A DNA stretch of 43,283 bases from a virus. The notes under the pieces were generated by a model. That model ran no database searches and had not been told where the DNA came from. It saw only the letters and a program-made list of their open reading frames with translations. A program made the position numbers and the translations under genes. Shown here one piece after another: positions 14,596 through 38,096 of the stretch (the first letter of the stretch is position 1; each line of letters starts with the position of its first letter). The DNA is taken from positions 1 to 43,283 of IMG/VR virus record IMGVR_UViG_3300042566_000324; one strand, given 5' to 3'.

Positions 14596-17500
14596 TTAAG
14601 AGTAAAAAATACCAAGTATTTGATTTAATGGTGCAAATGTACCCGTTAATTTATAAGTTTTACCATTGTAAAAGAATACCAATCCTTCATTTGCTACTAT
14701 TTTATCAATACCACCCAATTGATTTAATCGTTCTAATTCCGATTTTAGTTTTTGGATTTGTGTTGGATTTCCTGCAGTTCTGACTTGGTCTGCAACTTGT
14801 TTGAATTTTTGTTTCATTGCTCTTATTGCATTTTCAGGATGAACGGTTAATACACTTCCAACAAAGTCTAAAACATCTGCACCAACTCCTAAAAATATTT
14901 CTTCAAATGGTTTTATATTTTCTTTTTGTTGTTTTGCAACATTTACTTTATCATTTTGCATTGCCCATTTTTGCAATTCTACATTTGAAATTGTATTTAA
15001 TCTAAATGATTTATCACCAAATGCCCATCTTCTAATTAAAGATTCTTTTGTAAGTTTGTCAACTTTTACTGGACTATTTGATGTAATCCACCAATCCCAC
15101 CAACTTTGATGATAATCTGCAACATTATCGTTATCTTTTAAATGAAATTCTGATTGTAATTTGTTTAATTTAGATAAATATTTACCTTGCTTAGAACTAA
15201 GGTCTGCGGATTTTGGAATTGATGTAATCGGTGGTCCTTGAATTGTATACTTTGATTGAACATCTGCGTTTACTTGTTTAATCATTCCAGCTAATGTAGA
15301 AGCTGCCGAACCATCTGCACCAATTGCTTCACCTTTTTCATTATAACAAGTTGTATTATGAAATACTAATAAAGCCTGTCCATACGGAATTACATTAACC
15401 GAATCTGGCCATATTACTTCCAAATTCATAAAACATTTTCCCTCATTAAATATTTTTTTTCTTTGAGCTTCCGAAAGAGATTGAATAGCTGCCGATAAAT
15501 CTTTCATTGCAAAATTGTATGCATCGGTTAAACCACCTCTTCCACCAAACTTGGATGCAACATCTTCTATACCCATTGCATTTTCTCCTGCATTTGCTAG
15601 GTTACCTTTATTACGGGCTGCAATTAATCTACCATTTTTCCAACTTATTGCTAAAGCTTGTCCGTCTGTTTTTTCTCTAACTACTCCTAAATCACCATTA
15701 AGTGCTTTTGTGATAATATTTTTTAAATCACCAAAAGTTAAATCCATATCATCGAATGGATGTGACATATGCCCATATGCACCACCTTCCATCAATAATC
15801 CTTCTTTAATAAATTCGGTTTTTACATATTCTATATCTGGTAGGTTTTTTATACTATATGTAATCGTTCTCTCCTCTGCATCTTCATCGCCAAATATTGC
15901 ATCTGCTTTTGGAAATTCCGTTTGAGTATACCCACCATTTTTATACCAATCCTCACTCTTATCGGTATTTAATTTTCTTTTTTTACCTTTTTTAATAAAT
16001 GAACCATCTGGAACATCAGCTGTGTTTGCGGTTGCAACATTACTAACTTCGTTTAAATCGGGTTCAATGTTTAATTCTTTTTCCATTCTTGTAATATCAT
16101 CATACCCCATATTACGAAGTTCTCTTGCTACATCATTTGGATTATTATGATTTGGATTGCCAAATAAAAATGCATTAATTCTTTTTCTGTATTTAGAATC
16201 TCTATATAATTTAATAATATTTTTAAAATGAATATCTTTATTACCCATTTCGTAAATATTTTGTCCTTTTTTACCAATTCTAAATGTAGTTGCTTGCTTA
16301 CCATTGATTGTTGGCATTCCGTGGTCATCGGTTCCAATATCTTTAACGGTAACTTTTTTGTTTTTAAATTTGCCCATTAAAACTTCATCCCCTTTGTTCA
16401 CATTTACATTTATATTTTCATTATAAATTTGTTTATTTATTTTACCATAATTTCTCATTAAGATACCAGCAACAGCATGAGCTTGATTTTCAATTGGAGA
16501 ACCGGTTGCACCATCTTTAACTTCATCTCTCACTAAACCCAATTCATCTTGTTTCCTATGAACCATTTCGTGTGCAAGTGTTCTTAAAATATCAGCAGTT
16601 AATCTACCTTCAATTGCAACATATATTTCTTTAGACATTGGATTATATCCACCTAAACTGGTTTTTGCTTCTGAATATTCTTTACCTGATACTAATGTTA
16701 TTTTTGGTTGTTCTTTTAATTTTAATTTTTTAGTTGCATATTCTACAAAGTGATTTATAGAATTTTGTTTTGATTCAGAAATATTTTCTCTTAATAAGTT
16801 TGCAGCGTTTTGCTTTGGTTTATTTTTTTTATAATCTTCAATTGATTTAAGAAGTTGTTCGTCTGATAATTTATAGGTTTTCATTTTTTCAATTACTTTA
16901 CCAATAAAATTATAAATAAATTTTTGACTACCATTTTCTTTATTTGTATCAATACTTTCTAAAATACCACCAGTTGCTGCCGATAATCCAGCTCCTGCAA
17001 ATGGTGCATGGTGAGCTTGTAATCCCAATGTTTCAAATGATGCATGTTTTATAATATCTTTACCCAAATGTAAACCAAACGAAGTTGCACCATGCGTAAA
17101 TGCACCAACAGTTGATGTACTACCTGCTGAAAGTGCTGCCATTAACCCCTTTCCTGCTACTGCCGCCTTTACACCACCTACCGCAAATGCACCCAATGCA
17201 ATTGAACCTAAGATTAATGCACTATCAAATGCAAAATCCCACATATCTTTCTTTTGTTTTTTGGTTTCTTTCCAAGATGCTTCAAATAATTTCTTTTGTT
17301 CATCGGTAGCGGATTCCGATATTTTTGGTTTTTTTTCTTTTTTCTTTTTTCCTGTTGGTTGACCATGTGAATCTAACACATCGGTTTCAACTTCTTCATA
17401 TTCTTTTTTACCATCTGGCCCAACGGAAGTAAATTCACTCCAATGTCTACGTTTTCCGTCTTTGTCTTTTATGGTACCAATTTTACCAGTTTTTGAAAGT

Positions 17501-18942
17501 GATATTAGTGCATCCATAGTTCCACCAACTATTTCTTTTTTATGATGAAACCAGTTTTTAATTCCTTTTCCAAATTTTGAAACACCCTTTAATATTGTAT
17601 CTACTACATTTTTTCTTTCTGGAGATTCCGGATTATTATATAAATCAATGTCTTTATTATCTTCTGCAGACATTTCTTTTCTAGCTTTGTCGATTGCATC
17701 TTTAGTTTGTGCTGCAATTTTATCTGCAGGTGTTGTTTCTGCAGATGACTTTAATTCGGTTCCACTTAATTTTTGTTCAGGTGGTGGCCCTTGTTCTTCT
17801 CCAGGTGTTGTTATACCGGCTGCGTTTGGTTGTTCTTTATCAATTTTACCTTGTGCAGTTTGGTCTTTTTTAGTTGGTTGTCCCGGTTGAGCAGGCTTAG
17901 CTGATTGTGTTGCAGCTTTTCCTGGTTCTTCTTTTTTCTTAGGTTCATTTACAGGAGCATCATCTGGTCCTAATATTTTTGCAGCTTGTACATGTGCAGG
18001 ATGTTCTTTTGGTAATCTTAAAGCATTTCTCGCTTTAATTTTTTTTGGTCTACCTTTGCTATCCGTATATGGAATTTCAACATCCAATGCTTTATTTACA
18101 TCTTCTTCAAAATAGTTTTGGGCCCAAACTTCGAACATCTCATTTGTAATAACCCTTTCTATTATTTCTGAAATTGGGTCATACGGGTCATTTTTTTTGT
18201 GCCAATCAGGTTCATCGGATGGATGTTCTTTTTCATGTCTTGTAGGATGTGGTTCTGGTCTCATTTCGTAAGATGGGTTTGTATTATTACTTTCATCTAC
18301 TGAACCCGTTGGTGCACCATTAATATATCCTCCTGGTAAATTTAATCCAACTCCTATACCACCCGGAAAATCTTCGTTTAATTTTGATGTTATCATCTTA
18401 AAAATATCTTTGTCAAATTTTGGATATGCTTTTAAGAAAAACTTTTTAGCTTTTTCTTTATCATTATTTCCTAAACCATTTCTAACCTCTGTTCCACTAA
18501 TTGGATTCTCTTCGGCAGGAATTGGATATGTGTAACCAATTTCATCATAACCATATCCAGCTTTACCTTTATATGGTTTAAAATATTTACCTTGCAATCT
18601 TGTAGCATCCTTTTCACCAACTGCTGCAATATATGCAATGGTTTGTCCATCGTATTTTTTTAATATTTCAACAGGTCTATACGGATTATTTACTTTTACA
18701 AATTTAGTAGACGGAACACCAAACATCTTAGTTGCAATTTCCTTTTTTTCATTAAAAGAAAATGGAGATTTATCAGAAGATGTATCGTTTGATGTTGCAA
18801 TATAAACATTTGCAGAACCAAATTCGTTTACCAAATTTTGATATGCTGCATAATGTCCTTTATGAAATGGTTGGAAACGACCTGCGTAGATTGCTACTTC
18901 ACCTTGTATTTTTGGTTTATCTTTTTCTAATAATGAATTCAT
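14596..18942 (-). CDS. 1448-aa nucleotidylyltransferase/metallopeptidase/ligase-like fusion
   Basis: A giant three-enzyme fusion. (1) Residues 15-185: HxGH nucleotidylyltransferase (GRFQPFHKGH at 21-30, ISGTEVR at 148-154), closest in pattern to NMN/nicotinate or other small-molecule adenylyl- or cytidylyltransferases. (2) 320-560: Pro/Gln/Lys-rich disorder, then a Gly/Ala hydrophobic stretch at 570-615. (3) About 720-840: zincin-like peptidase, LAHEMVHRKQDELG (HExxH 791-795) with ENQA at 818-821 as third ligand. (4) About 1045-1448: covalent nucleotidyltransferase (ligase) fold: REKTDGQ with Lys1091, ARNKG, NLE (Glu1174), EGLVFF (1419-1424) and YKLTG with Lys1431, matching motifs I, III, IV and V; I recall related sequences as DUF6267. 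It lies upstream of the packaging genes. Substrates are unknown; a virion-carried enzyme is conceivable. Confidence 0.8.
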   Translation of the reverse strand: MNSLLEKDKPKIQGEVAIYAGRFQPFHKGHYAAYQNLVNEFGSANVYIATSNDTSSDKSPFSFNEKKEIATKMFGVPSTKFVKVNNPYRPVEILKKYDGQTIAYIAAVGEKDATRLQGKYFKPYKGKAGYGYDEIGYTYPIPAEENPISGTEVRNGLGNNDKEKAKKFFLKAYPKFDKDIFKMITSKLNEDFPGGIGVGLNLPGGYINGAPTGSVDESNNTNPSYEMRPEPHPTRHEKEHPSDEPDWHKKNDPYDPISEIIERVITNEMFEVWAQNYFEEDVNKALDVEIPYTDSKGRPKKIKARNALRLPKEHPAHVQAAKILGPDDAPVNEPKKKEEPGKAATQSAKPAQPGQPTKKDQTAQGKIDKEQPNAAGITTPGEEQGPPPEQKLSGTELKSSAETTPADKIAAQTKDAIDKARKEMSAEDNKDIDLYNNPESPERKNVVDTILKGVSKFGKGIKNWFHHKKEIVGGTMDALISLSKTGKIGTIKDKDGKRRHWSEFTSVGPDGKKEYEEVETDVLDSHGQPTGKKKKEKKPKISESATDEQKKLFEASWKETKKQKKDMWDFAFDSALILGSIALGAFAVGGVKAAVAGKGLMAALSAGSTSTVGAFTHGATSFGLHLGKDIIKHASFETLGLQAHHAPFAGAGLSAATGGILESIDTNKENGSQKFIYNFIGKVIEKMKTYKLSDEQLLKSIEDYKKNKPKQNAANLLRENISESKQNSINHFVEYATKKLKLKEQPKITLVSGKEYSEAKTSLGGYNPMSKEIYVAIEGRLTADILRTLAHEMVHRKQDELGLVRDEVKDGATGSPIENQAHAVAGILMRNYGKINKQIYNENINVNVNKGDEVLMGKFKNKKVTVKDIGTDDHGMPTINGKQATTFRIGKKGQNIYEMGNKDIHFKNIIKLYRDSKYRKRINAFLFGNPNHNNPNDVARELRNMGYDDITRMEKELNIEPDLNEVSNVATANTADVPDGSFIKKGKKRKLNTDKSEDWYKNGGYTQTEFPKADAIFGDEDAEERTITYSIKNLPDIEYVKTEFIKEGLLMEGGAYGHMSHPFDDMDLTFGDLKNIITKALNGDLGVVREKTDGQALAISWKNGRLIAARNKGNLANAGENAMGIEDVASKFGGRGGLTDAYNFAMKDLSAAIQSLSEAQRKKIFNEGKCFMNLEVIWPDSVNVIPYGQALLVFHNTTCYNEKGEAIGADGSAASTLAGMIKQVNADVQSKYTIQGPPITSIPKSADLSSKQGKYLSKLNKLQSEFHLKDNDNVADYHQSWWDWWITSNSPVKVDKLTKESLIRRWAFGDKSFRLNTISNVELQKWAMQNDKVNVAKQQKENIKPFEEIFLGVGADVLDFVGSVLTVHPENAIRAMKQKFKQVADQVRTAGNPTQIQKLKSELERLNQLGGIDKIVANEGLVFFYNGKTYKLTGTFAPLNQILGIFYS

Positions 18943-19454: not shown

Positions 19455-20407
19455 TATGGTAAATTATTTAATTTTATTTTAATTGTATCTTTTATTATAT
19501 TTGTTATATCATTTAAAATTGGTAATTTATCATAATTGTAATGTCCACATATTTTTATTAATGATAATTCATCTTTAATATCAAAATCATTTACATTATT
19601 TACCCATCTTATCCATTTTTTTGATTCTAAACATATTTTATAAAATTCAGTTATTTCTTTTTTATTCATATGTTGTAAATAGATATCCGTTTCAATCTGT
19701 GCTATTTCAGGACCTATATTAATACTATCAATGCCAGCATCAAATCTAATGCTCAATTCTTCGTTTGATAAATAATCTCCATTATGCTCTTTTACTTTTT
19801 TATCAAAAGATTTAACAACATCAATCATCTCTTGCATTCTTTTTTTATCAAAAGAACCTATATTTTTTCTATTAACCAAATCAATTGCAACTCCGGATTG
19901 AATTACAACATATTTTATATTAGAAAATTCCTGATTAGTTAAACTTGTTTTTAAATATTTTAGGATTCTATTTAAATCTACGTTTTCAAATTTTTTGATG
20001 GTTTCTTCCGTTCCAATTTCGTAAAATACATTTGGATTTAATTTATATAATAATTTTATAGTTTCTTCTGTTGAAATTAGACCATCTAATAATTGATTAC
20101 TATAAAATTTCCATGGGTCTATATGAATTATATTAAAATAATCCAAATCATTTATATATGACACCTTACCATCATCTTCCGTTATACCTTGCCATTCACC
20201 ACCGTGGTCTCGTCCTATTACAATATTATTACTTTTGCTTTTTACATAATTTGTAAACTCTTTAGTATCCCAACCATTTACATATCCACCATTCCAATCA
20301 ATTTGTCTTCTAGTTGGTATTAATCCAAATTTACTTGAATTAATTTCAATTACAGCATCTACAATATTTTTTGATATTGGACATATAAAATATTTTGGAT
20401 TATTCAT
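19454..20407 (-). CDS. GatZ/KbaZ-like class II aldolase family protein
   Basis: A 317-aa TIM-barrel protein resembling the GatZ/KbaZ family (subunits of D-tagatose-1,6-bisphosphate aldolase) and related sugar-phosphate enzymes found in surface-polysaccharide loci. Visible blocks are GLIPTRRQIDWNGGYVNGW (28-46) and IVIGRDHGGEWQG (62-74), the IDPWKFYS strand end, and YEIGTEE. Full-length GatZ is about 420 aa, so this is a short version. It overlaps the AroE-like gene by 8 bases. A role in splitting or joining a phosphorylated sugar is suggested by the family, but a role as a non-catalytic partner is equally possible. Confidence 0.65.
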   Translation of the reverse strand: MNNPKYFICPISKNIVDAVIEINSSKFGLIPTRRQIDWNGGYVNGWDTKEFTNYVKSKSNNIVIGRDHGGEWQGITEDDGKVSYINDLDYFNIIHIDPWKFYSNQLLDGLISTEETIKLLYKLNPNVFYEIGTEETIKKFENVDLNRILKYLKTSLTNQEFSNIKYVVIQSGVAIDLVNRKNIGSFDKKRMQEMIDVVKSFDKKVKEHNGDYLSNEELSIRFDAGIDSINIGPEIAQIETDIYLQHMNKKEITEFYKICLESKKWIRWVNNVNDFDIKDELSLIKICGHYNYDKLPILNDITNIIKDTIKIKLNNLP

Positions 20408-21023
20408 AATCTATTTGTGTATATAATTTAAATTGTTCTATTGCTTGTAATCGTGCAATTTCCTTTCCATCCATTGTAAATGGTCTTGCATCAATTATTA
20501 TATTGGTGTTTGATTTTATTTCAATAGGTGTCGCATTTATAAAATATTGGTTAGTAACATCATCTATATTTGAAATATCATTTCTATTTACGATTGAGAA
20601 ATTGATGTTTAATTTTGAAAATGCATACATAATTGCTTTTGCAAAACCACCGGTTCCAATTATGTTTATATGTTTTATTGGTTTATTTTTAAAAAAATTA
20701 TAAACTCCAATCCAATCGGTATTATATCCGTATAGTTTTGAATTATTTATTATAACCGTATTACATGCACCGATGTTGATAACGGAATCATCGTATTCAT
20801 CCAAATAATCATATACTTCGGTTTTTAAAGGCATACTTAATGCAAATCCTGCAAATTGTAAGTGTTTGGTAGACTGAATAGTTTGTTCTATGTCTACCGA
20901 ATAAAATGATTTGTATATTGCATTTATGTTATATTTTTTAAATGCGTTATTAAAAAATATACAACCATTATTTCCAGGATTATCTGAAAATGAACCATAT
21001 AGTTTAGTATCTTTATCTATCAT
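20400..21023 (-). CDS. Short shikimate dehydrogenase-like protein (AroE family)
   Basis: A 207-aa AroE-family protein (usual length about 270 aa). The substrate-site signatures are intact: FALSMPLK ends in the catalytic Lys67, GACNTV is at 85-90, and GYNTDWIG at 99-106 carries the catalytic Asp103. The cofactor loop IIGTGGFAKA (121-130) is the NAD(P) glycine loop. The N-terminus starts at the usual YGSFSDNPGNN equivalent of the G-x-P-x-x-x-S motif, with S retained but changed spacing. The C-terminal helices that close the active site are missing or rearranged. Given its sugar-biosynthesis neighbours it may reduce a keto group on a sugar-like ring rather than 3-dehydroshikimate. It overlaps both neighbours. 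Confidence 0.75.
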   Translation of the reverse strand: MIDKDTKLYGSFSDNPGNNGCIFFNNAFKKYNINAIYKSFYSVDIEQTIQSTKHLQFAGFALSMPLKTEVYDYLDEYDDSVINIGACNTVIINNSKLYGYNTDWIGVYNFFKNKPIKHINIIGTGGFAKAIMYAFSKLNINFSIVNRNDISNIDDVTNQYFINATPIEIKSNTNIIIDARPFTMDGKEIARLQAIEQFKLYTQIDYE

Positions 21024-22923
21024 AGTTAGACATTAGTTCTATTGATTTAAACCACAACATTTTACTAAACTTTTCATTGTGTAAGGGAGCCATATTTAAA
21101 AATATAATAGAAGTTAACAATTTAACTTTCTTTAAATCAAAATTATTTTTTGTTATCCAGCTTTCTAAATAACTTTTAAATTCTATTAATGAATGTGATA
21201 TTTCAAAACTATAATTAACAGAATATTCACCTCTAAGAAATATTATATTATTTTCATCTTTCATAGAATTATATGGAATTAAACATCCACCATATAATTT
21301 TGCCAAATCGTAATATAAGTCTCCAGATGTAGTTAATCCGGCAAAGGATTCTCTCCAATCTATGTATATAAATTCATCCGTATTAGAATTATATATAACA
21401 TTATCGAATTGTAAATCACCATGAAATAATTTATAAAATGGATTGGTATGAAAATCTTTAAAATTTACTTTTGATAATAATGATTTCATACTATCATATT
21501 CAATACCATTAATATTATGCTTTGAATTGTAATAATCATTTGAATATTTTTTTAAAAATAATTCCAATCTATGATTTGTTTTGTTTATGTAAAAATCATC
21601 AATATAATTTGAATAATCACCATTTTCTTTTATATCAAAATTTGATTTAAATTTTTCTAAAAATTTCTTATATAAATCAATTGAATTAATTTCATATAAA
21701 GTTTTACCATCTTGCCATTCGTATGATATAAAGTTATTAGTATAATTGAAGCCAGACGGTATTTGATTTTTTAATTCTTTTGCTCTAATTATTCTATTGT
21801 TTAGAACTGATTTATTTGGTGTGAATTTTATAAATAAATTATTTTCTTTATATGTTATTTCACCATTGTTTTTTTGTAAAGATAATGGATTGTCTTTTAA
21901 ATATTCTTTTGTTTTGTTCAAATCATCTAAATTGCCGGTATCTAACCATTTTAGTTTTTTAGCTTTAAATGTTGGATATTTTTGTGGATTTTCAAAAGCA
22001 GACACTATTTCACCATCTATAATATTATTTTCCAATTCTTTCCAGAATATATCATAATCCCACATTCCCGCTAAACCAATAAATGCCATATCAAATCCAT
22101 TTACATTTTTATTAGAATATTTTATTATATTATCATTATCTAATAAAACCGTTGAGTATTTTTCAGGATATGATGTTGGTTGTATACCCAACCAATTACC
22201 ATCCAGATATGGTAGTGGTGAATCTATCAAACAATCACAGGTTGTAATATAAAATGGTCTTTGAAGTAAATTTTTACATTTTAGAGCAGAGTATCCTGGA
22301 CCCGAATCTTTACCTTCTATATTGTCTATTTTTACAAATGTAAAATTGTGATTAGGAAATGCTAATTTACAATATTCTTCTACTATATCTCCTTTATAAC
22401 CAATAGCAATAATAAATTGATACTCTTTTGGAAACTTTTCAATTATATGAGAAATTATTGCACGATTATTAATAGGTAAAAGTGCTTTGTTTGTATATTG
22501 TGTAAGCGTTTCTAATCTAGACCCAATACCAGCTGCCAATATTAATACTGCGGGTGTTTGGTGTTCTCCTTCTATTTTTCCATTTGCTCTATGAAACTCA
22601 TCATCAATTCGGATAACATCATCTACCTCTGGTGTAGAAACTTCTTGTAAAATAATATCAGTTAATGCAATAACTCTATGTTTTTTTGGTGGAGTTACAT
22701 TAAAATATTCTCCAGCTTTCATTAATTTTTTTTCAACAACACCATTATCATTTTCTAACCATATTTCAGCTTCACCTGATATTATATAGTTTGTTTCTCT
22801 TTTAAGATTATGATATTGAAAAGATGTTTTATATCCTGCATTTATATAAATCCTTTTGTAACAGTACCTATCATTTAATTCCAACCATTCTTCTTTACCC
22901 CATGGTTTTATAACCGTTTTCAT
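21013..22923 (-). CDS. Cupin / NTP-transferase / APH-type kinase fusion
   Basis: A 636-aa three-domain protein. Residues 1-105: cupin like the type II mannose-6-phosphate isomerase domain (KPWGKEEWLELNDRYCYKR, YHNLKRETNYIISGEAEIWL). Residues 124-345: sugar-NTP transferase of GT-A fold (LILAAGIGSRL at 128-137, NKALLPI with Lys147, TTCDCLID with the metal Asp230). Residues 355-636: APH/choline-kinase-like phosphotransferase (HGDLQFDN at 501-508, YIDWRESF with Asp522). One chain could therefore phosphorylate a small alcohol or sugar and then activate it as an NDP or CDP derivative, as LicA plus LicC do for phosphocholine. The substrate is unknown. It heads the minus-strand precursor genes and overlaps the AroE-like gene by 11 bases. 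Confidence 0.88.
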   Translation of the reverse strand: MKTVIKPWGKEEWLELNDRYCYKRIYINAGYKTSFQYHNLKRETNYIISGEAEIWLENDNGVVEKKLMKAGEYFNVTPPKKHRVIALTDIILQEVSTPEVDDVIRIDDEFHRANGKIEGEHQTPAVLILAAGIGSRLETLTQYTNKALLPINNRAIISHIIEKFPKEYQFIIAIGYKGDIVEEYCKLAFPNHNFTFVKIDNIEGKDSGPGYSALKCKNLLQRPFYITTCDCLIDSPLPYLDGNWLGIQPTSYPEKYSTVLLDNDNIIKYSNKNVNGFDMAFIGLAGMWDYDIFWKELENNIIDGEIVSAFENPQKYPTFKAKKLKWLDTGNLDDLNKTKEYLKDNPLSLQKNNGEITYKENNLFIKFTPNKSVLNNRIIRAKELKNQIPSGFNYTNNFISYEWQDGKTLYEINSIDLYKKFLEKFKSNFDIKENGDYSNYIDDFYINKTNHRLELFLKKYSNDYYNSKHNINGIEYDSMKSLLSKVNFKDFHTNPFYKLFHGDLQFDNVIYNSNTDEFIYIDWRESFAGLTTSGDLYYDLAKLYGGCLIPYNSMKDENNIIFLRGEYSVNYSFEISHSLIEFKSYLESWITKNNFDLKKVKLLTSIIFLNMAPLHNEKFSKMLWFKSIELMSNYDR

Positions 22924-23774: not shown

Positions 23775-24323
23775 ATGAGTTATAATAAATGGGATGAGTT
23801 CATAGAAACTCCATCAAAAAAATTTGGATATCAAGTTCCGTCATTTCAACCATCCGTTTTTAGGGAATATAGAGGTGAAATATTTACGACTTTCCATTCG
23901 GAAGAGCATCCTGCAATGAGGCATGTTCATTATGATAAAAATGAATTATCAATTCATAGTAGATTTTCTCGTTCTTACAAAGGTGTATTGAGAGGATTAC
24001 ATGGTGATAATAAGACATGGAAATTGGTTCAAGCTACCGTTGGAGACATTTATTTAGTTGTATTGGATGCAAGAGAAAGTTCCGATACATATGGAGATTG
24101 GGAAAGTTATATTATAAGTGAAAGATTAAGAAATCAAGTTTTAATTCCACCAGGATTTGTAAATGGACACTATGCATTAACTGATTGTATGTTTCATTAT
24201 ACCCTATTATACAATGGTTCGTATGTCGATTCTCCGGAACATAAAGTAATTAAATGGAATGACCCAGAGTTTCAAATAGAATGGCCTACAAATAATCCAA
24301 TACTTCAATCAAAAGATAAATGA
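23775..24323 (+). CDS. RmlC-like sugar 3,5-epimerase
   Basis: A 182-aa cupin-fold protein of the dTDP-4-dehydrorhamnose 3,5-epimerase family, the same length as RmlC. Visible are GVLRGLHGDN (70-79) with the catalytic His76, KLVQATVGDIYLVVLDAR (83-100) with its Asp98, the DTYGDWESY segment, and IPPGFVNGHYAL (124-135). It should epimerise an NDP-4-keto-6-deoxy sugar, a product of an NDP-sugar 4,6-dehydratase such as the SDR two genes downstream. It opens the plus-strand island and its stop overlaps the next start (ATGA at 24320). The first 30 residues diverge from typical RmlC. Nucleotide specificity cannot be read. Confidence 0.88.
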   Translation: MSYNKWDEFIETPSKKFGYQVPSFQPSVFREYRGEIFTTFHSEEHPAMRHVHYDKNELSIHSRFSRSYKGVLRGLHGDNKTWKLVQATVGDIYLVVLDARESSDTYGDWESYIISERLRNQVLIPPGFVNGHYALTDCMFHYTLLYNGSYVDSPEHKVIKWNDPEFQIEWPTNNPILQSKDK

Positions 24324-24952
24324 TAAATTATTTAAAAAATCATCCAATTGTGAAAGAATCACAATATACAAAAGATGATTTAATAAAATTTGAAAGATTA
24401 ATTGCAGACCATTGGGAATCAGGTAGAATAAAAGGGCCTGTGCATCTTAGTGGTGGGAATGAAGATGAGTTAATTGAAATTGGAAAAAGAATATCCCCAT
24501 CGGATTGGGTTTTTTCAACTTGGCGTTCTCATTATCATGCATTGATTAAAGGTATTGACCCACAATGGTTAGAGAATGAAATATTAGAAGGAAGGTCTAT
24601 TACAATTGTAAATAAAGAACAAAAATTCTATTCAAGTGCAATTGTTGGTTCTATTATTCCTATTGCAGTTGGTGTAGCAATGGCAAATAAAAGAAATGGT
24701 AATGATGATAAAGTATGGTGTTTTGTTGGTGATATGGCGTTTGAAACTGGCGGGTTTTATGAAATGAACAAATATGCAGAACGATATGATTTACCAATTA
24801 CATTTGTAATAGAAGATAATGGAGTATCAACAAATACACCAACGGAAGCAACCTGGAATGGTCAAAAAAGAGACATCCCAAGTAAAACAATATGGTATAA
24901 CTATGAAAAAAAATGGCCGCATTACGGAACAGGAAAATGGGTAGTGTTTTAA
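24320..24952 (+). CDS. E1-alpha-like TPP-dependent enzyme subunit
   Basis: A 210-aa TPP-binding subunit resembling the alpha chain of pyruvate/acetoin dehydrogenase E1, but about 120 residues shorter. Residues 102-125 (FYSSAIVGSIIPIAVGVAMA) are the typical helix before the cofactor loop. The TPP/Mg motif is GDM-x26-DN (FVGDMAFETGG through FVIEDNGVST), a GDG-x26-NN variant. The N-terminal STWRSHYHALIKG segment corresponds to the conserved HPLYLA-type region. Its last 16 bases overlap the SDR gene. With the beta-like subunit at 25949 it could transfer or remove a two-carbon unit on a sugar or keto-acid precursor. No E2 or E3 gene is present, so ordinary dehydrogenase function is unlikely. Confidence 0.8.
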   Translation: MINYLKNHPIVKESQYTKDDLIKFERLIADHWESGRIKGPVHLSGGNEDELIEIGKRISPSDWVFSTWRSHYHALIKGIDPQWLENEILEGRSITIVNKEQKFYSSAIVGSIIPIAVGVAMANKRNGNDDKVWCFVGDMAFETGGFYEMNKYAERYDLPITFVIEDNGVSTNTPTEATWNGQKRDIPSKTIWYNYEKKWPHYGTGKWVVF

Positions 24953-25947
24953 TAACAGGAATAACAGGAATGGTAGGTTCACATTTAACGGATTTTTTAT
25001 TAGAAAATACCGATTGGAAAATATATGGGTTTTGTAGATGGAATGATAATTTGGAAAATATAGAACACCTTTCTTCGGAAATAAATAATGGTAAAAGATT
25101 ATCATTAATATATGGTGATTTAAATGATTTATCTTCATTAATTAATGCCGTAAACATTTCTAAACCAAAATATGTATTTCATTTAGCTGCACAATCTTAT
25201 CCACAAACTAGTTTCATTTCTCCAATAGAAACATTACAAACAAATATAATAGGAACTACAAATTTATTAGAATCACTAAGGTTGTCAAATTGTAAAGATG
25301 CGATAATTCATATATGCGCATCATCGGAGGTTTTTGGTAAAGTTCCAAAAGATAAATTACCAATAGATGAAGAGTGTGGATTTCATCCAGCATCCCCATA
25401 TGCCATATCAAAAGTTGGAACCGATTTAATTGGTAGATACTACGCCGAAGCATATGATATGCGTGTTATGACAACAAGAATGTTTACACATACAGGCCCA
25501 AGACGTGGAGATATATTTCACGAATCCACTTTTGCAAAACAAATTGCAATGATTGAAATGGGATTACAAGAACCAAAAATATATGTTGGAAATTTAGAAT
25601 CACTTAGAACATATGCAGATGTTAGAGATGCAGTTAAAGCATATTATATGTTAGTAACGATTAATCCAATAAAAGGTGAATATTACAATATCGGTGGAGA
25701 ATATACATGTGAGGTTGGTGATACATTAAATTATTTAATAAACAAATCAACAATTAAAAATATAGAAATAGTAACGGATGTCGATAGACTTAGGCCGATT
25801 GATGCCGATTTACAAGTTCCCAACACTACAAAATTTAAAAAACATACTGGATGGGAACCAACAATACCCTTCAATAAAACAATGGATGATTTATTAGAAT
25901 ATTGGAGGGATAAAGTAAAAACAGGTAGAAAATTTTTAAAAAGATAA
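24937..25947 (+). CDS. GDP-mannose 4,6-dehydratase-like SDR
   Basis: A 336-aa extended SDR; I start it at the ATG at 24937 (MGSVLITGITGMVGSH), preceded by AGGAA, rather than an in-frame ATG eight codons upstream that lies inside the previous gene. NAD(P) loop TGITGMVG (7-14), CASSEVFGK with Ser130 and Glu131, and YAISK with Tyr155 and Lys159 give the dehydratase-type catalytic set of GDP-mannose 4,6-dehydratase. Further agreement: THTGPRRGDIFHESTFAKQI and a YNIGGEYT block. It should convert an NDP-hexose to its 4-keto-6-deoxy form, which the RmlC-like protein could epimerise. It sits between the two TPP-enzyme halves. Confidence 0.88.
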   Translation: MGSVLITGITGMVGSHLTDFLLENTDWKIYGFCRWNDNLENIEHLSSEINNGKRLSLIYGDLNDLSSLINAVNISKPKYVFHLAAQSYPQTSFISPIETLQTNIIGTTNLLESLRLSNCKDAIIHICASSEVFGKVPKDKLPIDEECGFHPASPYAISKVGTDLIGRYYAEAYDMRVMTTRMFTHTGPRRGDIFHESTFAKQIAMIEMGLQEPKIYVGNLESLRTYADVRDAVKAYYMLVTINPIKGEYYNIGGEYTCEVGDTLNYLINKSTIKNIEIVTDVDRLRPIDADLQVPNTTKFKKHTGWEPTIPFNKTMDDLLEYWRDKVKTGRKFLKR

Positions 25948-25948
25948 T

Positions 25949-26497
25949 ATGAATAAACCAGAATATACACCATATAAAGATGCATTAACAAATGCGATGT
26001 CAGAAATTGCTAAAATAGAAAATTCAATTTTCATTGGCCAACAGATTTTATTTTCAGGAAATCCAATGAGCACAACATTAGATGGAGTTTCAAAAGATAA
26101 AATGATTGAAGTTCCTGTTATGGAAGAATCTCAAATGGGAATGAGTTTAGGTATGGCTATGACTGGAAACTTTGTTGTTACCTTTTATCCTCGTTGGGAT
26201 TTTTTAATTTGTGCTACAAATCAATTGGTAAACCATATTGATAAAATTGGTTTAATGAGTAATAACAAATGGAAACCAAATATGATTATCCGTGTTGGCA
26301 AGGGTAGTGATAAACCATTAGACCCAGGTCATCAACATAAAGGAAACTATTTTGATGAATTTAAATCAATGTGTCCTAATATTGAATTTCATAATTGTAT
26401 GAGATGGCAAGAAATTGAATTGTCATACAAATATGCTATAAACAATGGAGGTATTAATCTTATTGTTGAATATCCTGAGTTGTATTATTCCAACTAA
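25949..26497 (+). CDS. E1-beta-like TPP-dependent enzyme subunit
   Basis: A 182-aa protein matching the pyrimidine-binding domain of E1 beta chains and transketolases. The sequence VPVMEESQMGMSLGMAMTGN (about 52-71) holds the catalytic Glu that protonates TPP, and DFLICATNQLVNH with IRVGKGSDK and DPGHQHKGN follows as in E1-beta. The usual C-terminal transketolase_C domain is absent (E1-beta is about 325 aa). It starts directly after the SDR stop and is the likely partner of the alpha-like subunit at 24320. Its 3' end overlaps the convergent minus-strand gene by 38 bases. Confidence 0.8.
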   Translation: MNKPEYTPYKDALTNAMSEIAKIENSIFIGQQILFSGNPMSTTLDGVSKDKMIEVPVMEESQMGMSLGMAMTGNFVVTFYPRWDFLICATNQLVNHIDKIGLMSNNKWKPNMIIRVGKGSDKPLDPGHQHKGNYFDEFKSMCPNIEFHNCMRWQEIELSYKYAINNGGINLIVEYPELYYSN

Positions 26498-26891
26498 CTT
26501 CCCATACTTGCATATCAGCTGCTAGACAATCTATTTTATAATCCTTTCTACCACCGGATACTTCTTGTATTTTGTTTTTAGCTGTGTTTCTAATACCATT
26601 CAGTCCATGAGTAAGTTCCAAACTATTACCATCTTTGATTCCTTTACGAACATTTGATTCGTTGTGCCAGATATGTAAATTCATTTGCGATAATACTACA
26701 ATTGCTCTTATTGTTTCGGCAGTAACAACACCTTTATTTTCATCTAAACACATTTGAATATCATGCACAATATCTTGGATTTCTTTTGCATATTCGGATT
26801 TGTGTTCTGGAATAAATACTTCTTTTAACTGTACAATGGATAATCTATCTACCAATTCACTTAAAGTTGGTAAGTATTTTCTGTGTTTCAT
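26460..26891 (-). CDS. Conserved phage protein of unknown function
   Basis: A 143-aa protein that I recognise as a recurrent, unnamed protein of environmental T4-like phages: RKYLPTLSELVDRLSIVQLK at the start, HIWHNESNVRKG in the middle, LTHGLNGIRNTAKNKIQEVS and GGRKDYKIDCLAADMQVWEV near the end. It is helical and has no metal or nucleotide motif. The ATG overlaps the stop of the SGNH gene upstream (ATGA). It is the last gene of the long minus-strand glycan block and ends inside the convergent E1-beta gene. Function unknown. Confidence 0.75.
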   Translation of the reverse strand: MKHRKYLPTLSELVDRLSIVQLKEVFIPEHKSEYAKEIQDIVHDIQMCLDENKGVVTAETIRAIVVLSQMNLHIWHNESNVRKGIKDGNSLELTHGLNGIRNTAKNKIQEVSGGRKDYKIDCLAADMQVWEVSWNNTTQDIQQ

Positions 26892-35259: not shown

Positions 35260-36666
35260 TTATAATTTTACATTTATCATAACAGATTTGTCCGTTATAT
35301 TTTCTATACTTATTAATTCGTATTTTATATTATTTATTCCATCGGTTTTATAGTCTATTTTACCCTGTTGCATTTGTAAAATATATCTTTTTTCATTTTT
35401 TGCAGTTGTTTCACCTTTTGCCCATTTATCAACACCACCGACACTAATCAATCCTTCCGTTTGATGTGGTAAACATTTAAATTTACCATCTCTTCTGTAT
35501 GGTAATACCGTATGTGGTATTTCTATTTTTTCTTTTGTTAATTTAACATTATGTGAATTACCAAATTCTAAATTCATAGTAAAAATATCCAATATTAAAT
35601 TATCTTCAGGAGTTTTTTTATGTAAATTTTTAATTTCATTTGAAGTTAAACATCTATTCCACATTTTAATATCGGCAATTGCTCCTTTAAAAAAAGATTC
35701 AACAGGTGATTTTGAATAACCAATATAAAATGGTTCACTTCCATATCTCTTAAGTGGTTCATCATATATTAAAGGAGATTGTGTACCCGTTCCCAATCTT
35801 GCGTCACTTTCTTTACCATTTAAATAGAAATGTATTTTTTTATTTTCAGAATCGACTGACATTGTAATCCAACTCCATTGATTTTCATATCTTTTAATCC
35901 ATTGATACAAATGTGTTTTCATTCTATCCCAAAGTTGCATTGTGTATGCTCTACTATTATTAAAAGATAAACCCCAATCATAGCCAGGTTTTCTGAAAAT
36001 AGGGTATTCTACAAATCTTCTATCTTCATCACCGATTAACCAAATAGGAACTTTTTCTATTTGTTGTTCTGCTTTTACTAAAATAGAAATAGTGTGTGAA
36101 TTTGAAATACAATCTTTTTGTTCTTTTGATGCTGGCAATTCTATCTTTGAATTTATTCCATTAAAATTTGCTACATATTTTTCCTCAGTATAATTTAATT
36201 TTGTTTTATCGGCGTATCCTTCCATTACACATCTCCAAAATAGGTCATCATCTTCCATACCCCAATCCCAATAACCATTTGAATAACCATTCGTTCTCTC
36301 TACTTGCTCTTTTGAAAATACAACTGCACCTCCAAAGTATTCTTCATACTTTAATTGGTAATCAGATTGTGAAATACGAACTGCAATATGTTGTGGGTTA
36401 TCGGTTGGAAATGAATAATCGCAACTATCATCTTCTGGAACCATATCTATATCGTGCCATACAATGTAATCACATCCATCTTCAAATGCATGTTTAGCAG
36501 CAATATTTTTCATTGCTCCTCGATTAAAAAGTTTATCGTCGCATTGGTGGCCAAAATAAATGGTATACTCAATTCCTCTTTCTTCTAAGAATTTTGATAT
36601 ATGAGGAATAAACACTTTCATATGTTCTTCTCTATTTCTATATGGTACACATACACCCAATTTCAT
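35260..36666 (-). CDS. GT7 galactosyltransferase-like, split by a LamG insert (A)
   Basis: A 468-aa protein. Residues 1-150 are the N-terminal part of a beta-1,4-galactosyltransferase (GT7): VCVPYRNREEHMKVF, HDIDMVPED with the metal Asp72-x-Asp74, FGGAVVFSKEQ, and NGYWDWGMEDDDLFWR (W-G-x-E-D-D). Residues about 160-365 are a LamG/concanavalin-like insert (HTISILVKAEQ, KKIHFYLNGKESD, PFYIGYSKSP, IADIKMWNRCLTSNEI). Residues 385-468 return to GT7: LPYRRDGKF, then YKTDGINNIKYELISIEN, matching the DGLNSLxY end of animal GT7 enzymes. It should transfer a UDP-hexose to a glycan acceptor, with the insert perhaps binding substrate. Confidence 0.85.
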   Translation of the reverse strand: MKLGVCVPYRNREEHMKVFIPHISKFLEERGIEYTIYFGHQCDDKLFNRGAMKNIAAKHAFEDGCDYIVWHDIDMVPEDDSCDYSFPTDNPQHIAVRISQSDYQLKYEEYFGGAVVFSKEQVERTNGYSNGYWDWGMEDDDLFWRCVMEGYADKTKLNYTEEKYVANFNGINSKIELPASKEQKDCISNSHTISILVKAEQQIEKVPIWLIGDEDRRFVEYPIFRKPGYDWGLSFNNSRAYTMQLWDRMKTHLYQWIKRYENQWSWITMSVDSENKKIHFYLNGKESDARLGTGTQSPLIYDEPLKRYGSEPFYIGYSKSPVESFFKGAIADIKMWNRCLTSNEIKNLHKKTPEDNLILDIFTMNLEFGNSHNVKLTKEKIEIPHTVLPYRRDGKFKCLPHQTEGLISVGGVDKWAKGETTAKNEKRYILQMQQGKIDYKTDGINNIKYELISIENITDKSVMINVKL

Positions 36667-36668
36667 AT

Positions 36669-38096
36669 TTATATTCCAACCGTTATGTGAGTTTGATTAC
36701 CTACTTTAGTTTTATTATGTTCTACATATTCTAACGTATTTAATCCATCCGTTTTGTAATTAAATTTATTATTTTCAACTTCATTATGAAATTTTATTTG
36801 ATTGTATCTTGTTGTTATATTTTTCCAAGAACCATTTGAGTATCCATTTTCATCGTGGTTTAATAATTCAAATAAACATTCTCTTCTATATGGTATTTTT
36901 AATGTTTTATCATCTTCTATACTATACTCTACTAAATTAGAATTATTTACAATACCATTATTATTACCAAAAGATAAATCTATCAATTCATTATTTTTTA
37001 TAATTCTACAATCATAATATAATTTTAAATTATCAGCTGATTTATAATTTTTAAAGTTGGATGTTAATCCAAAAAACTTATTGTTTGATATTTCTAAAAT
37101 TTCAAATCGTGATAATATTTTATCATAGTATGCAAACGAACTAATTGAACCTTTAAAATTATTTTTTAATTCATTTTCTATATGGCCGGATTGTCCTAAA
37201 TAAAAATATGGTGCAGATGCATAGTCATATAAATTACCATTAAAATATGTATTATTTACAAATTCTCCATCTTGATACATTGTTATCAATTTTTTGGTTG
37301 GGTCAATTGTAACACATATTGTCGTTTTATAATTTGATTTTATGTCAGAATTTATATAACTTATTTCTTTTAGTTCATTGTATAATTCAAAATTATATCT
37401 ATTGTATGAATTATACGATATTCTTAAATCAAATCCAGGTATTGAAAATATAGAATAAGTATCATCATACTTATTTATATCACAAAGTATCTTATCAGGA
37501 AAAAATGAAATAAAAAATGTTATTTCTTTTTTAAAATTAAATTCATTTTTACCCCTTACATATGAATCATTGTTATTAAAGTAAAGTGCTGCAGTACCAC
37601 TAACCGATGATTTTATAGTTTTTTCATCCAAAGCAACACGTGTCGTTTTACATCTAAATAACAAATCATTATCTTCATATCCCCATCCCCAATATTCATT
37701 ACTATATCCATTTATTCTTTCAAATGCAGCAATGGGAAACATAGTAACACCGCCAAAATATTCATCAAATATTATTTTAGATGTTTCATTATTTTTAGAA
37801 AAAAATTTAGTTGCCAAATGAATTGGTGTATCTGCGTATGAATAATCCACTTCATGTGGTAGCATATCAATATCATGAAATACCACATAATCACATTTCA
37901 TTTTTTTAGCCAATACAAACCCTATATTTAATAATTTACCTCTATTAAAACTTTTAGCATCATCTTGTTCAACTACTATTAATTCAAATGGAATACTCCT
38001 TTGTTTTAAATAATTTATTATAGAATGTTTAAATGCATATAGATGTTCATATCTATTTCTAAATGGAACAATTACTCCTAATTTTTTATTTTCCAT
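36669..38096 (-). CDS. GT7 galactosyltransferase-like, split by a LamG insert (B)
   Basis: A 475-aa paralogue of the gene downstream with the same split design. N-terminal GT7 part: VIVPFRNRYEHLYAFK, FHDIDMLPHEVDYSY (Asp75-x-Asp77), EYFGGVTMFPIAAFERINGY, WGWGYEDNDLLFR. LamG-like insert about 155-385: FFISFFPDKI, TICVTIDPTKKLITMYQDGE, APYFYLGQSGH, SISSFAYYDKILSRFEI. C-terminal GT7 part about 395-475: IPYRRECLFELLNH and NYKTDGLNTLEYVEHNKTKV then THITV, the canonical DGLNxLxY...TxITV end. The ATG overlaps the 64-aa gene by 11 bases. Confidence 0.87.
   Translation of the reverse strand: MENKKLGVIVPFRNRYEHLYAFKHSIINYLKQRSIPFELIVVEQDDAKSFNRGKLLNIGFVLAKKMKCDYVVFHDIDMLPHEVDYSYADTPIHLATKFFSKNNETSKIIFDEYFGGVTMFPIAAFERINGYSNEYWGWGYEDNDLLFRCKTTRVALDEKTIKSSVSGTAALYFNNNDSYVRGKNEFNFKKEITFFISFFPDKILCDINKYDDTYSIFSIPGFDLRISYNSYNRYNFELYNELKEISYINSDIKSNYKTTICVTIDPTKKLITMYQDGEFVNNTYFNGNLYDYASAPYFYLGQSGHIENELKNNFKGSISSFAYYDKILSRFEILEISNNKFFGLTSNFKNYKSADNLKLYYDCRIIKNNELIDLSFGNNNGIVNNSNLVEYSIEDDKTLKIPYRRECLFELLNHDENGYSNGSWKNITTRYNQIKFHNEVENNKFNYKTDGLNTLEYVEHNKTKVGNQTHITVGI

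Follow-up and report, generated by a model that had tools for sequence, protein, structure and literature searches.

Two-chain, E1-type thiamine diphosphate (TPP) enzymes have been proposed to put pyruvate-derived two-carbon (C2) branches on keto sugars in the case of AviB1/AviB2 and Pau11/Pau12, and a further enzyme, KbDH, has been tested in vitro on ketones (PMC4425429, PMC4753412, PMC12247030). Split-gene transketolases, also two-gene TPP enzymes, have been proposed for miharamycin and amipurimycin, where they would add C2 to a keto sugar as a hydroxyacetyl group (PMC12247030). A separate set of enzymes remodels GDP-heptose in Campylobacter jejuni, where GDP-4-keto-heptoses are epimerised, optionally deoxygenated at C3 by a pyridoxal phosphate enzyme, and then reduced by a C4-reductase; no TPP enzyme is among the enzymes described in these reports (PMC10440746, PMC10680097). 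The virus record IMGVR_UViG_3300042566_000324, whose whole 43,283-base sequence is referred to here as the window, carries a four-gene island related to both systems. The genes lie in the order RmlC-fold epimerase, PP half (E1-alpha-like), dehydratase and PYR half (E1-beta-like), and phage cassettes of this kind have the same front end as the Campylobacter pathway plus a TPP enzyme.

The preferred reading, which we consider moderately likely, is that the two halves form an enzyme that would transfer C2 to the 4-keto group of a GDP-4-keto-heptose, by analogy with the role proposed for AviB1/AviB2. Like AviB1/AviB2, Pau11/Pau12 and KbDH, which are of the alpha-keto acid dehydrogenase 2 type, the island contains an E1-alpha/E1-beta-like pair in a keto-sugar pathway. 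The AviB1/AviB2 group works on a (TDP-)hexose, whereas the phage pair is proposed to work on a nucleotide-linked heptose and occurs in phages. The chains also fall short of the 325/345 amino acids (aa) of Pau11/Pau12 (PMC4425429), having 210/182 aa and no C-terminal beta domain, a comparison drawn from descriptions rather than from sequences. The miharamycin/amipurimycin enzymes, in contrast to the window pair, are of the transketolase class with a C-terminal domain and a proposed hydroxyacetyl donor (PMC12247030). Titles and abstract openings in the open-licence literature yielded no description of a phage or heptose TPP branching enzyme, and GDP-heptose remodelling and TPP branching of keto sugars, which this reading joins, were not found together in the literature searched. 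The original prediction had already suggested TPP-dependent branching of a keto sugar; the C2-branching role stands as the best available explanation, but the type of sugar it assumed is probably wrong.

The two halves are very likely the PP and PYR domains of one minimal TPP enzyme, judging from their sequences. Both match phrog_34187, a 405-aa PHROGs family of unknown function that holds the two halves in one chain, and a PP+PYR fusion is carried by cyanophages S-SM2, as SSM2_198, and P-TIM68 and by a Prochlorococcus contig (L088). The S-SM2/P-TIM68 "transketolase central region-containing protein" belongs to this same family, with ~43% identity in PP and 32–34% in PYR; unlike the two genes of the window, it is a single fused chain beside a zinc alcohol dehydrogenase. 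From 79 loci (76 from IMG/VR and three named phages), 50 phage records were selected by eye so as to cut near-duplicates, some of which remain. Separate genes encode the halves in 47 of these records, two records have the fusion, and one 14-kb fragment has PP only. The separate halves always share a strand (47/47), with PP upstream in 45, and the gap between them ranges from −139 to 10,808 bp (below 150 bp in 13 records, 150 bp to 2 kb in nine, longer in 25). Separation by a dehydratase gene, which the original prediction had emphasized, is thus true of the window but not a general rule, as the halves may also be adjacent, several kilobases of other genes apart, reversed or fused. Pairwise distances for PP and PYR correlate at 0.892, compared with 0.728 and 0.785 against the epimerase (90 loci; relatedness not removed).

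Among 25 family members, PP shows no variation at D138, R69, H73 and H201 and hardly any at N167, and E59, H96 and H130 of PYR are invariant among 23. D138 and N167 of PP and E59 and H130 of PYR line up with the corresponding D, N, E and H in human E1, among which we take the Asp...Asn to bind metal and the Glu to be the aminopyrimidine residue. Apart from the TPP motif, which reads GDM, the pair therefore has the hallmarks of the transketolase/E1 superfamily: PP and PYR domains, Asp...Asn and Glu. The fused homologue L088, modelled with AlphaFold2 (pLDDT 89.6, pTM 0.92), matches E1-beta residues 1–176 over its PYR part (1w85_B; Z 22.3, rmsd 1.6, 169 residues aligned) and human transketolase to residue 477 of 617 over its whole length (6had; Z 20.8, rmsd 3.5, 353 aligned). 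Neither the C-terminal domain of beta nor the final stretch of E1-alpha is present. An ordinary 2-oxo acid dehydrogenase E1, such as that of pyruvate dehydrogenase, was rejected on these grounds: the 182-aa beta chain has no Transketolase_C match, the 210-aa alpha chain stops matching E1_dh at profile position 172 of 300, and scores lie far below equivalog cut-offs (95 bits for the alpha chain against E1-alpha TIGR03182, with a cut-off of 394). The shortness of the halves had been noticed beforehand, as had the lack of E2/E3, and a Pfam scan of 21 window proteins likewise found no E2/E3 or lipoyl family.

The pair looks catalytic as well as minimal. Decaying host genes or functionless stuffer DNA would account for chains shorter than E1 subunits, and whether cyanophage lipopolysaccharide (LPS) clusters are functional or stuffer is a point left open in PMC3037559, on which the present reading bears. 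Catalytic residues are nonetheless kept across phage, bacterial and archaeal members, both halves are kept in 49 of the 50 records, and all four island genes are under purifying selection (dN/dS 0.09–0.18 against two relatives, L001 and L005), which makes decay very improbable.

The sugar is probably a heptose and not a hexose, and the TPP enzyme likely acts in a GDP-4-keto-heptose pathway. The best PDB match of the window dehydratase, a short-chain dehydrogenase/reductase (SDR), is 7us5 at 366 bits; the next reaches 187 bits and GDP-mannose 4,6-dehydratases ~136 or less. A phage relative 46% identical to it also finds 7us5 first (206 vs 172 bits). For the epimerase, the eight best PDB matches (122–129 bits) include GDP-4-keto-heptose epimerases, and the next match drops to 85 bits. 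PDB entries 7ang, 7an4 and 7ani bear dTDP-rhamnose-type names and are presumably Campylobacter heptose epimerases. The window protein keeps the residues aligned with His67, Lys74, Asn121, Tyr134 and Asp173 of MlghB/DdahB (PMC7949155), including all four used as a catalytic test (His67, Lys74, Tyr134 and Asp173), and has Phe at the Tyr132 position. The RmlC-fold protein is probably a GDP-4-keto-heptose C3 and/or C5 epimerase.

Many relatives have a gene for a different SDR directly ahead of the epimerase gene, and the best solved match of this SDR is 6vo6 (352 vs 87 bits for the next). The PDB names 6vo6 a "putative sugar-nucleotide epimerase/dehydratease"; we take it to be C. jejuni Cj1427, a GDP-heptose C4-dehydrogenase. 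Either the dehydratase or the Cj1427-type enzyme would yield a GDP-4-keto-heptose. Cj1427 has been used as a C4-dehydrogenase making GDP-D-glycero-4-keto-D-lyxo-heptose (PMC10680097). One subgroup of relatives also has a neighboring DegT protein, for which an aminotransferase role was rejected because His replaces the catalytic Lys in 48 of 49 sequences, the remaining one being unmatched by the pattern; its best PDB match is ColD, and its predicted assignment is to the C3-dehydratase type. The C. jejuni GDP-heptose enzymes are the closest solved relatives of the dehydratase, the epimerase, and the dehydrogenase and DegT protein of the relatives. A gene of the HddA family (heptose 7-phosphate kinase-like) lies near bacterial relatives L082, L083 and L084, HddA-like and HldE-like genes lie beside cellular relatives L082–L084, L088 and L089, and S-SM2 is annotated with heptose genes.

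The same C2 branching could instead take place on a hexose, with the SDR acting on GDP-mannose and a yersiniose-like branched octose as the product. Pfam and NCBIfam both label the SDR GMD-like, the epimerase has an RmlC-like Ser in its pocket, and the phages of this set lack GmhA, but the margin of 7us5 over GDP-mannose dehydratases, the exchange of the dehydratase for a Cj1427-type enzyme and the HddA-like and HldE-like genes all speak for a heptose and leave this alternative unlikely. The NDP-4-keto-6-deoxyhexose named by the original prediction fared poorly for the same reasons: both sugar enzymes are nearest to GDP-heptose enzymes among solved structures, and relatives swap the dehydratase for the Cj1427-type C4-dehydrogenase. 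A generic rhamnose island was also rejected, as RmlA was found above the cut-off in none of the 50 records, with four short matches below it. A heptose made by the phage itself was rejected as well, since the GmhA-type family was found in none of the 50, and a host supply of GDP-heptose must therefore be assumed.

Linkage across loci ties the TPP enzyme to enzymes that form the 4-keto group. All scans started from window-like queries or their relatives, so the loci are not independent, and loci of different scans share contigs, such that the 138 loci are not 138 contigs. The score thresholds for gene calling in the reciprocal, longer-E1 and NodU-control scans and in the distance and SDR counts were chosen by the analyst, and the tallies of 32, 15, 45 and 42 records that follow were counted by hand from result tables. 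A C4-dehydrogenase homologue (at least 51% identity) is present in 32 of the 50 phage records and the dehydratase (at least 47%) in 15, with both in two and either in 45; the epimerase (at least 44%) is found in 42. Starting from the C4-dehydrogenase, a TPP half lies within 9 kb in 74 of 78 viral loci, and in three of the four exceptions (L120, L134 and L137) the sequence runs out shortly past the gene. Starting from the dehydratase, 53 viral loci contain the TPP family in 36 cases, a longer E1 pair in 10, a split transketolase in one and no detected TPP gene in six (L189, L192, L197, L202, L217 and L220, of which L189, L197 and L217 are cut upstream). Other TPP enzymes thus occupy 11 of the 17 dehydratase loci without a window-type pair. 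The longer E1 chains are ~275 and ~304 aa (for example, L181:4214-5928), and the split transketolase, resembling the miharamycin/amipurimycin arrangement, sits in a phage heptose cassette (L216:5615-7415). The strongest hint that C2 carboligation belongs to the pathway comes from E1-type pairs and a split transketolase occupying one and the same phage slot, both being classes proposed for sugar branching (PMC12247030). As a control, the NodU carbamoyltransferase gene was taken from a TPP locus: a TPP half lies near NodU in 36 of 80 loci, or 28 of 47 with full flanks, compared with 58/59 and 31/33 in the reciprocal sets (Fisher tests against 28/47, p = 2e-7 and 6e-4, relatedness ignored). The TPP link is tighter than the island background.

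These results bear on two further explanations. The pair might be a small transketolase acting upstream of the nucleotide sugar, making sedoheptulose 7-phosphate as a heptose skeleton, or another sugar phosphate. Transketolase is among the top whole-length fold matches, and the split transketolase of L216 occupies that same region, close to a PfkB-type kinase. The PYR and PP profiles match E1-beta and E1-alpha rather than transketolase, however, and most loci have no nearby heptose-phosphate gene, while enzymes acting on GDP-heptose occur in 45 of 50 records; this role seems rather improbable. Slightly less probable still is unrelated 2-oxo acid chemistry, in which the enzyme would be a decarboxylase or supply acyl groups for some other glycan decoration, or else branching at another carbon such as C3. 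An E1-type fold says nothing about the acceptor, and related enzymes are known to branch at C3 (PMC12247030), but the tight linkage to the 4-keto-forming enzymes and the epimerase, and the lack of E2/E3 in the scanned window proteins, count against it.

Several observations weigh against C2 transfer to a GDP-4-keto-heptose. The TPP motif is GDM rather than GDG in the window and its near relatives, with GDG kept in the cyanophage type. In the heptose pocket of the epimerase, His123 is kept but the Ile56 position is Ser, as in hexose RmlC (PMC7949155). The GmhA-type result noted above points the same way. Five of the 50 records, of the cyanophage type, have neither 4-keto-forming enzyme, and no TPP gene was found in dehydratase loci L192, L202 and L220 or in C4-dehydrogenase locus L154, although these are uncut beside the gene. 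The island background itself is high, as the full-flank NodU figure shows, among related loci. A fucose-synthase-like SDR occurs in 93 of 138 loci; these SDRs might be ordinary C4-reductases, and the idea that the TPP enzyme always replaces a C4-reductase is weakened accordingly. No activity is known for any family member.

What the sequences show is the genes with their catalytic residues, how consistently the halves are paired, and a link to enzymes that form 4-keto-heptoses. From these we infer the reactions, donor, attacked carbon, host supply and glycan of a pathway in which the island makes one unusual nucleotide sugar. The RmlC-fold protein would epimerise C3 and/or C5 of the keto sugar. 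The PP and PYR chains would join into one enzyme, with a 2-oxo acid as the donor of a two-carbon acyl unit; pyruvate is the foremost candidate, although we rate it at a little under an even chance. The acyl unit would be added to the C4 carbonyl, a step that seems reasonably likely, to give a tertiary alcohol with an acetyl branch and hence a branched nine-carbon GDP-sugar, which phage glycosyltransferases may place on a glycan. In relatives, the Cj1427-type C4-dehydrogenase would replace the dehydratase step, a ColD/heptose-type C3-dehydratase could remove O3, and products of SDR or zinc alcohol dehydrogenase genes could act on the branch ketone to reduce it. In 13 loci (L039-L048, L078, L079 and L088), a zinc alcohol dehydrogenase family lies beside or between the cyanophage-type TPP genes, where it could reduce the acetyl branch. 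No fucose-synthase-like SDR was detected in the window, so there the ketone may be left as it is, unless an enzyme from the host or one that escaped detection reduces it.

More tentatively, and with somewhat less than an even chance in our estimate, aquatic phages may run an undescribed arm of GDP-heptose metabolism that puts a carbon branch on the 4-keto group instead of reducing it, giving branched nonoses. The step would be so needed that three TPP types (the minimal PP/PYR pair, the longer E1 pair and the split transketolase) fill the slot, possibly with acetyl and hydroxyacetyl branches. The analysis offers a candidate function for a phage protein family that has none assigned and turns up repeatedly in aquatic viral contigs, and the small PP/PYR pair could prove a convenient biocatalyst for making tertiary alcohols. 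Cellular homologues look rare: at least nine loci were found in a genome-contig scan, among 398 genomes of one phylum two carry a homologue, including the genome that supplied the query, and among 194 of a second phylum the one carrier is the genome of the query itself.

The window encodes tailed-phage head genes (major head protein, portal and terminase) on the minus strand, with a region of GT7/laminin-G proteins to their right. That four overlapping or abutting genes form its only plus-strand stretch is borne out by the open reading frame (ORF) coordinates and Pfam, as they are the sole plus-strand ORFs among 35 of at least 150 aa; GC skew and AT skew flip sign across them. The RmlC-alpha-GMD-beta order recurs in L001, L002, L003, L005 and L006. 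Because of this recurrence and the dN/dS values, the island is not a chance arrangement, and the four genes are confirmed as real and correctly placed. A megablast of half the window against phages gave no match.

Table 1. Genes of the plus-strand sugar island in the window.
Feature	Position	Strand	Details
RmlC-fold sugar epimerase	23775..24323	+	182 aa; Pfam dTDP_sugar_isom 1.1e-31
PP half, E1-alpha-like, TPP-binding	24320..24952	+	210 aa; Pfam E1_dh 2.5e-16; phrog_34187 positions 3-198 of 405
GMD-like SDR (dehydratase)	24913..25947	+	344 aa; Pfam GDP_Man_Dehyd 1.3e-72; PDB 7us5 366 bits
PYR half, E1-beta-like, pyrimidine-binding	25949..26497	+	182 aa; Transket_pyr 1.9e-6; phrog_34187 positions 237-401 of 405

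The epimerase and alpha genes overlap by 4 bp, the alpha and GMD-like genes by 40 or 16 bp depending on the GMD start, and a 1-bp gap separates the GMD-like and beta genes. The internal ATG at 24937 is the likelier dehydratase start, because the first codons from 24913 fall in the conserved 3' end of the alpha gene. An out-of-frame ATG lies in this conserved PP end (Gly-Lys-Trp codons) in the window (24937-24952) and in 16 relatives. The window dehydratase probably starts at this ATG, and other phages start a different gene there, which looks like an exchange of downstream genes at a constant 16-bp overlap with the PP 3' end.

Other genes near the TPP genes include a radical SAM family, mostly in cellular loci (L033, L034, L081-L083, L085, L086 and L089), the L086 member being B12-binding. 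A 143-aa protein on the minus strand (26460-26891) has no Pfam or PHROG match, and its family occurs near TPP genes in 27 loci. Also on the minus strand, a 207-aa protein (20400-21023) matches only a shikimate dehydrogenase substrate-binding domain, and in a 636-aa protein (21013-22923) a mannose-6-phosphate-isomerase-type cupin is followed by a nucleotidyltransferase domain and finally by a region that matches PHROGs families without known function. Among the head and packaging genes, a 1448-aa minus-strand protein (14596-18942) has an N-terminal cytidylyltransferase-type match. Two adjoining minus-strand proteins (35260-36666 and 36669-38096) each combine a GT7 (galactosyltransferase-type) domain with a laminin-G/concanavalin domain.

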